A DNA stretch of 64,000 nt from Pukyongia sp. GTDB lineage: Bacteria > Bacteroidota > Bacteroidia > Flavobacteriales > Flavobacteriaceae. Below are positions 44,658 through 47,940 of the stretch, one piece after another. Under the pieces are notes generated by a model. The model was given only the letters and a program-made list of their open reading frames with translations, did not search any database and was not told the origin of the DNA. The stretch's first letter is position 1. Each line of letters begins with the position of its first letter. Made by a program: the position numbers and the translations under genes. Location: assembly GCA_030148705.1 (NCBI GenBank), contig JASBSY010000014.1, positions 248,001 to 312,000 on the forward strand, read 5' to 3'.

Positions 44658-45503
44658 TTAAGCTGGCTTTTGAAAGCAATAGATAAGAGAGGAGTATTCT
44701 TTCGAGTTTAAAGCTTTGATATTCGACCACAATCCGATAAAAAGTGCTTTTATGGAAAACGAGTTTCCCGATTTATACTTTTCAGATAAAAGACTTACAT
44801 AAAAAGCATCGAACCACATCGGTTTCACTTTAACCAAATGCATTGAATCGGAAAAAATAGTGATTATGGACTTGCGGGAGAAATGCCATAAATGCCTTGG
44901 AACGTCGAATGCCGCCCAATATTCTTTATAATAGGCTGCGTCGTACGATTTGTAATTAGGAACTGCAATTATCAGGTAACCTCCCGGCTTTACCATGCGC
45001 TTTAGCCGATTAACTTCTGTGTCGAGTTCCGGCAAATGCTCTAAAACATGCCATAAGGTTACTACATCGTAGGTTTTATACGATAGCTCGTCTATAGACT
45101 CAACAAGATCGATTCCTTTATGGGAGGCGCGTTTCCTGGCTGCTGAATTAGGCTCTGCGCCCTTCACTTCCCAGCCGTCTGTTTTAACGACGCCTAGAAA
45201 ATCACCGGTGCCTGCTCCGATGTCGGCCAGGGTTCCCCGCTTTTTAGCAAGCTTATTAACCAGTTTTACTTTCCGCGACAACGTAATTGACTTCACCCGC
45301 TGATACATAAAAGCCATAAGACCTTTGTCCGCATCGGAATGAGAAATATATGCCTTGCTATCGTAATACTTCTCCAGATCCTCCGTGGCCGGTTGAGGAC
45401 TGGTGACCAACATATCGGTAGTGCTGTCGTATAATAAATCGAAGGATTCCCCTGTTTTAAAAAAATCTCTGGTGCTTATATGCTTTTCGGCCTGTAGACT
45501 CAA
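44658..45503 (-). CDS. SAM-dependent class I methyltransferase
   Basis: This 281-aa protein has the SAM-binding motif I LADIGAGTGDFLGVV (~92), acidic motif WEVKGAEPNSAARKRA and motif LWHVLEHLPELDTEVNRLKRMVKPGGYLIIAVPNYKSYDA (~150-190). This layout is typical of methyltransferases of family 11/23. The substrate is unknown. The N-terminal FFKTGESFDLLYD is conserved in Bacteroidota homologues and is preceded by no ATG, so the start is TTG 45503 or another non-ATG codon just upstream. A parS-like site lies 18 bases upstream. Confidence 0.88.
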   Translation of the reverse strand: MSLQAEKHISTRDFFKTGESFDLLYDSTTDMLVTSPQPATEDLEKYYDSKAYISHSDADKGLMAFMYQRVKSITLSRKVKLVNKLAKKRGTLADIGAGTGDFLGVVKTDGWEVKGAEPNSAARKRASHKGIDLVESIDELSYKTYDVVTLWHVLEHLPELDTEVNRLKRMVKPGGYLIIAVPNYKSYDAAYYKEYWAAFDVPRHLWHFSRKSIITIFSDSMHLVKVKPMWFDAFYVSLLSEKYKSGNSFSIKALFIGLWSNIKALNSKEYSSLIYCFQKPA

Positions 45504-45520: not shown

Positions 45521-45536
45521 TGTTTCACGTGGAACA
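45521..45536. other. parS: parS-like ParB binding site (1)
   Basis: TGTTTCACGTGGAACA differs from the classic parS TGTTTCACGTGAAACA at one base and keeps the CACGTG core. It lies in the 38-base gap between the mnmG stop and the methyltransferase start. ParB spreading from parS directs origin segregation. Confidence 0.85.
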
Positions 45537-45541
45537 ATTTG

Positions 45542-47413
45542 TTATCGGCCCATATAGACCAATAAAACCGAAATATCGTTCGGAGAAACCCCGCTAATAC
45601 GACTAGCCTGGGAAACCGTTGCAGGTTGAATGGCCTTGAGTTTTTCCCGCGCTTCAAACGATAAAGACTTAAGCTTGGAGTAATCGAAACTCTCGGGAAT
45701 CTTAATTCCCTCCAGTCTGTTCAGTTTATCGGCATTGTTTTTCTCTTTTTCAATATACCCCGAATATTTTACCTGAATTTCGGCCTGCTGCAGCACTTCG
45801 GTGTCCAGTGAATTCGCGTCGATGAATTGTTCTACCGCGTCGATCTTCCTCATATCCTCCATGGTAATTTCAGGCCTGGAAAACATTTTAAACATCTTAT
45901 CGCTTTGATGTACAGGGGAAGAATCTTTTGCCAATAGAATTTCATTTGCGAGCTCGGGCTCCACACTGGTTTCCTTAAAGAATCGAACAAAAGCCTCCGA
46001 TTTATTCTTCTTATCTTCCATCTTCTGCATCCTTTCATCTGAAGCCAGTCCAATAGCATGCGATTTGGGAGTTAAGCGGAAGTCTGCGTTGTCCTGTCGC
46101 AATAAAGTCCTGTATTCGGCCCTGGATGTAAACATTCGATATGGTTCTTCCGTTCCTTTGGTAATAAGATCATCTATCAAAACCCCAATATACGCTTCGC
46201 TTCGGCTTAAAATAAATGCCTCTTTTTCCTTTACACGCAAATGGGCATTTATACCGGCCATAAGTCCCTGTGAAGCTGCTTCTTCATATCCGGTCGTCCC
46301 GTTAATCTGTCCGGCAAAGAACAGTCCTTCCACCAATTTGGTCTCCAGGGAATGCTTTAACTGAGTAGGTGGAAAATAATCGTACTCTATTGCATAGCCG
46401 GGTCTGAAGAACTTGACATTCTCAAAGCCGTCACATTCTTTTAGAGCTCTGAACTGCACGTCCTCCGGCAGGGAAGTAGAAAATCCGTTCACGTAATACT
46501 CTACGGTATTCCATCCTTCGGGTTCGACAAAAAGTTGATGCCTGTCCTTATCTGCAAATCGATTTATCTTATCCTCAATTGACGGACAATATCTGGGTCC
46601 CACACTCTGAATTGCTCCATTAAACATGGGCGACCTGTCAAAACCTTCACGCAATAAATCGTGAACTTTTTCACTGGTGTACGACATATAACAAGGCATT
46701 TGTTTACTCAAGGGTTGTGTGCTGTCCAGAAAGGAGAATTTCTGCGGATCTTCATCCCCGGGCTGGATTGTCATTTTAGAAAAATCCAGCGACCGTCCAT
46801 CCACTCTCGGCGGTGTTCCGGTCTTCATCCTCCCGGAATCAAATCCCATATCAACCAGGTCTTTAGTAATTCCCGTTGCCGCCTTCTCGCCGGCCCGGCC
46901 GCCACCAAACTGCTTCTCACCAATATGGATTAAGCCGTTGAGAAAGGTTCCGTTGGTTAACACCACAGTCTTAGCTCGTATCTCAAGCCCTAAAGAAGTA
47001 CGGACTCCCTTTATTTTATTTCCGTCTACGATTAATCCGGCAACCATCTCCTGGTAAAAATCAAGGTTTGGGGTTCGCTCCAACATCAATCTCCAGGTTT
47101 CAGAAAATCGCATGCGATCACTCTGAACCCGCGGACTCCACATTGCTGGTCCCTTCGACTTATTTAGCATTTTAAACTGAATAGCCGTCTTATCTGAAAT
47201 TATACCACTATAACCCCCAAGGGCATCGATTTCACGAACAATCTGCCCCTTAGCAATACCGCCCATGGCTGGATTGCAGGACATCTGTCCGATATTCTGA
47301 AGGTTCATTGTAACCAACAAAGTGCGAGATCCCATATTCGCAGCGGCGGCGGCGGCCTCCGAACCGGCATGTCCGGCCCCGACAACTATAACATCATATT
47401 CCTTTTCAAACAT
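45542..47413 (-). CDS. mnmG: tRNA uridine-5-carboxymethylaminomethyl modification enzyme MnmG (GidA)
   Basis: With MnmE, this FAD protein modifies the wobble uridine of several tRNAs. The ~623-aa sequence has YDVIVVGAGHAGSEAAAAAA (FAD, ~5-25), SCNPAMGGIAKGQIVREIDALGG and GTFLNGLIHIGEKQFGGGRAGE. It also has TGTPPRVDGRSLDFSKM and FAGQINGTTGYEEAASQGLMAGINA. The track start is GTG 47419; ATG 47413 (MFEKEYDV) is the standard start. It is flanked on both sides by parS-like sites, matching the classic origin-proximal location of gidA. Confidence 0.98.
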   Translation of the reverse strand: MFEKEYDVIVVGAGHAGSEAAAAAANMGSRTLLVTMNLQNIGQMSCNPAMGGIAKGQIVREIDALGGYSGIISDKTAIQFKMLNKSKGPAMWSPRVQSDRMRFSETWRLMLERTPNLDFYQEMVAGLIVDGNKIKGVRTSLGLEIRAKTVVLTNGTFLNGLIHIGEKQFGGGRAGEKAATGITKDLVDMGFDSGRMKTGTPPRVDGRSLDFSKMTIQPGDEDPQKFSFLDSTQPLSKQMPCYMSYTSEKVHDLLREGFDRSPMFNGAIQSVGPRYCPSIEDKINRFADKDRHQLFVEPEGWNTVEYYVNGFSTSLPEDVQFRALKECDGFENVKFFRPGYAIEYDYFPPTQLKHSLETKLVEGLFFAGQINGTTGYEEAASQGLMAGINAHLRVKEKEAFILSRSEAYIGVLIDDLITKGTEEPYRMFTSRAEYRTLLRQDNADFRLTPKSHAIGLASDERMQKMEDKKNKSEAFVRFFKETSVEPELANEILLAKDSSPVHQSDKMFKMFSRPEITMEDMRKIDAVEQFIDANSLDTEVLQQAEIQVKYSGYIEKEKNNADKLNRLEGIKIPESFDYSKLKSLSFEAREKLKAIQPATVSQASRISGVSPNDISVLLVYMGR

Positions 47414-47422
47414 AATCACAAT

Positions 47423-47438
47423 TGTTCCACGTGGAACA
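47423..47438. other. parS: parS-like ParB binding site (2)
   Basis: TGTTCCACGTGGAACA is a perfect 16-base palindrome with the CACGTG core and GTTCCACGTGGAAC sequence used as parS in pseudomonads and other bacteria. It lies in the mnmG leader, between the -7 box and the ATG. Confidence 0.9.
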
Positions 47439-47460: not shown

Positions 47461-47468
47461 CAAAGATA
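47461..47468 (-). promoter_or_regulatory. -7 box (TATCTTTG) for mnmG
   Basis: This is an exact TAnnTTTG match on the minus strand, 47 bases before the mnmG ATG. The predicted leader contains the parS-like palindrome, so ParB binding could affect transcription of mnmG. Confidence 0.45.
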
Positions 47469-47523: not shown

Positions 47524-47940
47524 CTACAAAAAGGAGCGCAATTGTAGCGCAGCATCCTCTGCCTTGCGCATCGCTTGTTTTGAGGTTTCAGATTTATCCC
47601 CATACCCGCAACAGTGAAGTATGCCATGGATGATCACCCTGTGCAATTCATCTTCAAACGAGGAGGAAAAACGCTCCCGGTTTTCGGCCACCCTGTCTGT
47701 AGATATATATATTTCAGCATGCACCTCCTTGTTCAAAGAATAGTCGAAGGTAATTATATCGGTATAGGTGTCATGGCTTAGATACTGTTTATTCAGTTCC
47801 AGTAAATACTGATCGCTGCAAAACACAAAACTAATATCTCCTGTCTCATATCCCTCCTTTGCGATAATTGCCTCGACCCAGGTCCTTATTTCGTTCTCAA
47901 GAGTTATACTAAAATCATTTTCAGAAAAGAACTCAATCAT
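47524..47940 (-). CDS. ybeY: Endoribonuclease YbeY (rRNA maturation)
   Basis: YbeY is a single-strand endoribonuclease needed for 16S rRNA 3' processing and ribosome quality control. The 138-aa protein has the family core DIITFDYSL (~61), GEIYIS-like AEIYISTDRV (~75) and the metal motif HGILHCCGYGDKS (105-117). The usual third histidine (HxxxHxxxxxH) is Asp115 here, a change I recall as common in Bacteroidota homologues. Its ATG overlaps the DUF4175 stop by 8 bases. Confidence 0.94.
   Translation of the reverse strand: MIEFFSENDFSITLENEIRTWVEAIIAKEGYETGDISFVFCSDQYLLELNKQYLSHDTYTDIITFDYSLNKEVHAEIYISTDRVAENRERFSSSFEDELHRVIIHGILHCCGYGDKSETSKQAMRKAEDAALQLRSFL

Follow-up and report, generated by a model that had tools for sequence, protein, structure and literature searches.

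The 64,000-nucleotide stretch analysed here (the window, to which all coordinates refer unless a locus is named) carries two 16-bp palindromes resembling parS, the binding site of ParB, one on each side of the tRNA-modification gene mnmG. The question is whether these palindromes form the chromosomal centromere of the bacterium, serve the gene that they flank, or belong to some element unrelated to ParB.

The two palindromes and their surroundings

The features concerned are as follows.

45521..45536, no strand assigned: parS site 3' of mnmG, TGTTTCACGTGGAACA; exact match, 5 bp past the mnmG stop
47423..47438, no strand assigned: parS site in the mnmG leader, TGTTCCACGTGGAACA; exact match, 9 bp 5' of the mnmG ATG
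45542..47413, minus strand: mnmG (gidA), 623 aa, between the two parS sites; TIGR00136, 857.6 bits (cut-off 524.85), and Pfam GIDA
47524..47940, minus strand: ybeY, the conserved upstream neighbour; PF02130
44658..45503, minus strand: class I SAM methyltransferase, the conserved downstream neighbour; Pfam Methyltransf_23
47461..47468, minus strand: TATCTTTG, a Bacteroidota-type -7 promoter element (TAnnTTTG, which we take to be the consensus of this element), 31 nt upstream of the 14-mer core of the leader parS

The mnmG gene is read from the minus strand, with its ATG at 47413 and its stop at 45542-45544. Positions relative to the gene show that the sites flank it, one per side, and that both are intergenic, as the initial annotation had stated. 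TGTTCCACGTGGAACA is perfectly palindromic, TGTTTCACGTGGAACA deviates by a single mismatched pair at the Y/R position, and both fit the 16-bp parS palindrome TGTTNCACGTGNAACA. No GidB/rsmG match is seen for the downstream methyltransferase (44658..45503).

A scan of the whole 2,888,107-base genome (a draft of 24 contigs, 99.6% complete) yields only two exact matches to TGTTYCACGTGRAACA, both at mnmG, against approximately 0.003 expected per genome from base composition; the reversed control pattern has no exact match genome-wide. Hence the pair is improbable by chance, as had been proposed, and the scattering of sites round the chromosome that would have spoken against parS is not observed. With up to two mismatches, one extra site appears, on another contig, so that the whole-genome total is three for the pattern and three for the control; with up to three mismatches, the window contains three sites (both exact ones counted) against 0.74 expected. 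Near-matches with two or three mismatches were rejected as further parS sites, their numbers being at chance level, and the weight accordingly rests on the two exact sites only.

In this member of the Flavobacteriaceae, the two sites very probably serve as the chromosomal centromere (parS) and lie in the origin region. The grounds are sequence-based, namely the exclusivity of the sites, their conservation, the skew in four relatives, the type of ParA and ParB, and one relative, G023, with sites apart from mnmG. Binding, clamp sliding and segregation are taken here from the known ParABS mechanism: the ParB encoded beside parA in another part of the chromosome would nucleate on the two sites and form CTP-bound clamps, these would slide across mnmG and the adjoining genes, and ParA would take over the freshly replicated origin region and segregate it.

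ParA, ParB and the position of the origin

The genome of the window (G000) has an adjacent parA-parB pair on contig C7, so that the absence of parB, which would have spoken against parS, does not apply.

L003 616-1380: ParA, 254 aa, adjoining parB
L003 1387-2289: ParB, 300 aa, directly after parA

In an alignment with solved ParB and Noc structures, the positions of Q173 and R201 in Noc are occupied in this ParB by R and G, within the sequence GKNRSTIANYLRLLK...SMGHGR; its CTP motifs GERRYRA and ENIQR are intact. RXXG residues mark the parS-binding class of ParB, and both the parS-type HTH (R173, G201) and the CTP motifs described for this class are present (PMC7383237). Nucleoid occlusion of the Noc/NBS kind is not indicated: the protein is without the Noc QKKR residues, with R and G at both switching positions, and scores 240.7 bits against the Noc model, under the cut-off of 315. 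ParB is present in 197 of 201 Flavobacteriaceae genomes, including all 167 of good quality. A second ParB-like protein of another type (596 aa; L004 1396-3186, on the 51-kb contig C11 of G000) has no adjacent ParA in the stretch read and is nearest to PRTRC/plasmid-type ParB, below the cut-off, and could thus point to a plasmid or mobile element.

ParB usually loads SMC as well; the SMC-ScpAB condensin is its usual partner, not a defining feature of parS. In the eight Flavobacteriaceae genomes searched (G000, G200, G156, G079, G145, G060, G124, and G023), the best match to canonical SMC (TIGR02168) scores 28.8 bits against a cut-off of 567, in a search confined to SMC itself. This agrees with two gut Bacteroidota, for which no known condensin is reported to have been found (PMC10197239).

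Raw GC skew was discarded as an origin indicator, being dominated by gene strand, and strand-corrected skew at fourfold-degenerate sites was therefore used, fitted with gene strand as covariate and with origin and terminus as breakpoints (20-40 sampled 20 kb stretches per genome in the complete relatives). The best origin lies at 1.32-1.40 Mb in G156 (mnmG at 1.38), at 2.02-2.20 Mb in G145 (mnmG at 2.03), at 1.14 Mb in G200 (mnmG at 1.18, 2.9 log units off), and at 1.04-1.20 Mb in G079 (mnmG at 1.01, 2.5 log units off). With the origin forced to dnaA, the fit in these four genomes is 13-23 log units worse or no longer valid; with the origin forced to parB, it is 13-21 log units worse. In all four, the fitted origin coincides with mnmG or lies no more than tens of kb from it, which places the sites in the origin region; parS near the origin is textbook knowledge.

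In the 440 kb read from contig C2, which contains the window, the skew is mostly negative to approximately 300 kb and positive from approximately 340 kb; the best single break falls at 395 kb, 100 kb from mnmG, breaks near mnmG are 6-8 log units worse, and the upturn comes 10-100 kb beyond mnmG. The window is in the origin region and not near the terminus, as had been suggested from the presence of mnmG; the four complete relatives carry this placement, and the draft contig of the window supports it to no better than approximately 100 kb. No clusters of DnaA boxes (TTATCCACA and relaxed forms) are seen in the 440 kb of C2 or in approximately 360 kb round mnmG in G200, and the placement accordingly concerns the origin region and not oriC itself. 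Neither dnaA nor parAB, which the initial annotation proposed to locate, is at the inferred origin, each being approximately 1 Mb away in the relatives (0.8-2.0 Mb from mnmG for dnaA and 0.6-1.5 Mb for parB in complete relatives). Many complete relatives (G145, G156, G170, G173, G014, G079, and others) are numbered from dnaA on C1, far from the skew-inferred origin; in G145, dnaA falls at the inferred terminus.

Conservation in the family and alternative readings

The family set comprised 201 genomes, one per genus except for the window's own genus. One to three exact 16-mers are found in 175 of them, and pairs approximately 1.9 kb apart, i.e., at the length of mnmG, are common; the 14-mer core GTTYCACGTGRAAC is found in 23 of the 26 genomes without an exact 16-mer, typically again paired. 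Among 29 complete relatives (single-contig family genomes having mnmG), the parS core is present in the mnmG leader of 28, the nearest site being 7-73 bp before the aligned start, and 1-105 bp after the mnmG stop in 26, with one more at 463 bp; in G132, the second site is degenerate. Information content is 1.9 bits per position in the site and 0.3-0.4 in the flanks (27 leaders, with sites selected by pattern), and the non-coding DNA flanking the sites is not conserved. The ybeY gene is upstream of mnmG in nearly all Flavobacteriaceae loci. One single-contig relative, G124 (99% complete), has no MnmG match and no parS core, yet has two ParB matches; the gap is either a real loss or a masked stretch.

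The placement of the leader site suggests another function, in which the leader palindrome would chiefly be a ParB operator regulating mnmG, acting as a roadblock approximately 30 nt downstream of the promoter element and coupling tRNA modification to origin copying or segregation. Of 27 leaders, 17 have TAnnTTTG at a distance of 25-37 nt upstream of the parS site, compared with five occurrences in the remainder of the 120-nt upstream stretch, so that ParB would sit near the transcript start, and the leader position of parS recurs across phyla. However, most relatives have a second site after mnmG, and the gidA promoter of P. aeruginosa showed no regulation by ParA/ParB in E. coli (unpublished result quoted in PMC3909081).

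The arrangement in G023 also bears on this operator. Its mnmG, at 1277 kb, has no parS site in 1.5 kb on either side; its three sites are at 997-999 kb, i.e., 280 kb away, and between two of them is a methyltransferase gene whose product shares 46% identity, over 271 aa, with that of the 44658..45503 gene of the window. Apparently the locus retained the sites when mnmG moved away and lost them, which favours a role for the locus rather than for mnmG. Regulation of mnmG by ParB, raised in the initial annotation, is possible, but nothing beyond the conserved leader position speaks for it, and G023 separates the sites from the gene; we consider it improbable that this is the chief function of the leader site.

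Far less probable is a function apart from ParB, in which some unrelated transcription factor recognising a CACGTG core would use the palindromes as its operators. That one of them is perfect and closely follows a promoter element would suit such a factor, and the putative link to ParB is itself drawn from sequence; against this stand the 14-16 bp match to the parS consensus, the contrast in information content with the flanks (partly due to selection of the sites), the absence of other copies in the genome, the location in the origin region, and the presence of a parS-type ParB. The least probable reading is an RNA element, i.e., a hairpin or terminator in the mnmG transcript: a consensus scan gives a 6-pair stem with a 4-nt loop at the leader site, but the leader folds no better than shuffles (z -0.36), an RNA hairpin does not need the conserved CACGTG core, and there is no Rfam match at this site.

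Spread, history and related systems

For the wider spread, we used a class pattern combining the parS core with the MnmG GxGHAG codons 28-58 nt away. Of 395 Bacteroidia genomes, at least 142 have a leader parS; they represent about thirty families, and the control gives no matches. A restrictive class-wide pattern for the 3' site gives at least 27 of 395, a weak lower bound, as the C-terminal codons and the gap vary. A near-identical pattern over named genomes returns at least 119 stretches. Among the matches listed, Bacteroidota include Flavobacterium, Winogradskyella, Pedobacter, Mucilaginibacter, and Algoriphagus; outside this phylum are Chlorobiaceae, Ignavibacteria, Calditrichota, KSB1, and Zixibacteria, and also Alpha- and Zetaproteobacteria, Desulfuromonadales, Bacteriovoracales, and Clostridia. 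These loci were selected by the leader site, so only their downstream content is independent. Among the matches listed, a further site, located -25 to 150 bp relative to the mnmG stop, is present in 9 of 19 assessable non-Bacteroidota loci, and parA or parB occurs in the stretch in 12 of 17 non-Bacteroidota loci versus none of 25 Bacteroidota loci (counting loci with a leader parS and at least 1.8 kb downstream).

The simplest history is that the placement at mnmG in Bacteroidota was probably inherited from an old mnmG-(rsmG)-parA-parB origin locus, which parAB would have left while parS stayed. In its extant form, the mnmG(gidA)-rsmG(gidB)-parA-parB locus of Proteobacteria and others likewise has parS in the mnmG leader, and often after the stop too; the difference is that Bacteroidota, with the sites still at mnmG, have parAB elsewhere and a different methyltransferase gene downstream. 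A more doubtful suggestion is that mnmG and parS are a module selected across phyla, ParB loading sites that bracket the gene being useful. The benefit might be, e.g., that transcription redistributes ParB clamps or that ParB controls mnmG, the centromere staying tied to the gene after parAB and dnaA moved; we hold this to be rather unlikely.

The centromere reading matches the ParABS systems of B. subtilis (Spo0J/Soj) and Caulobacter (ParAB) in the 16-bp site, the RXXG and CTP motifs in ParB, ParA adjoining ParB, and the small number of sites, clustered in the origin region. In contrast to these systems, 0.6-1.5 Mb separate parAB from the sites in complete relatives, a single gene, mnmG, has both sites next to it, and no canonical SMC scores above the cut-off. 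A study that includes the gut Bacteroidota Bacteroides caecimuris and Muribaculum reports origins marked by clusters of parS, not all of them at dnaA (PMC10197239). A parS-marked origin and two Bacteroidota with no known condensin are common ground; that work reports Hi-C and site positions and, in the part consulted, leaves the neighbouring gene unnamed, whereas the present analysis names the anchor gene and shows how widely the arrangement is spread. In the literature searched, we found no description of parS flanking mnmG; an earlier mention in Livny et al. (2007), the main survey of parS positions, is possible. The kind of system, ParABS, is known, and its anchoring to mnmG is unremarked as far as could be searched.

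The pair of sites gives a simple marker of the origin region where dnaA misleads, dnaA and the inferred origin being separated by a quarter to half a genome in many complete relatives. It is also a case of a centromere that lies apart from its parAB genes, in genomes where the SMC search gave no canonical match. What holds parS sites clustered in place over evolution has been posed as a question in review (PMC7333895), and the recurrent pairing of mnmG with parS across phyla bears on it as a concrete pattern to explain. The pairing also has a variant: in several loci of Cytophagales, Sphingobacteriales, and Chitinophagales (L216, L229, L231, L234, L246, L247, L250, L261, and L277), which show no site after mnmG where enough downstream sequence is available, the mnmG leader carries two parS, approximately 25-70 bp apart.
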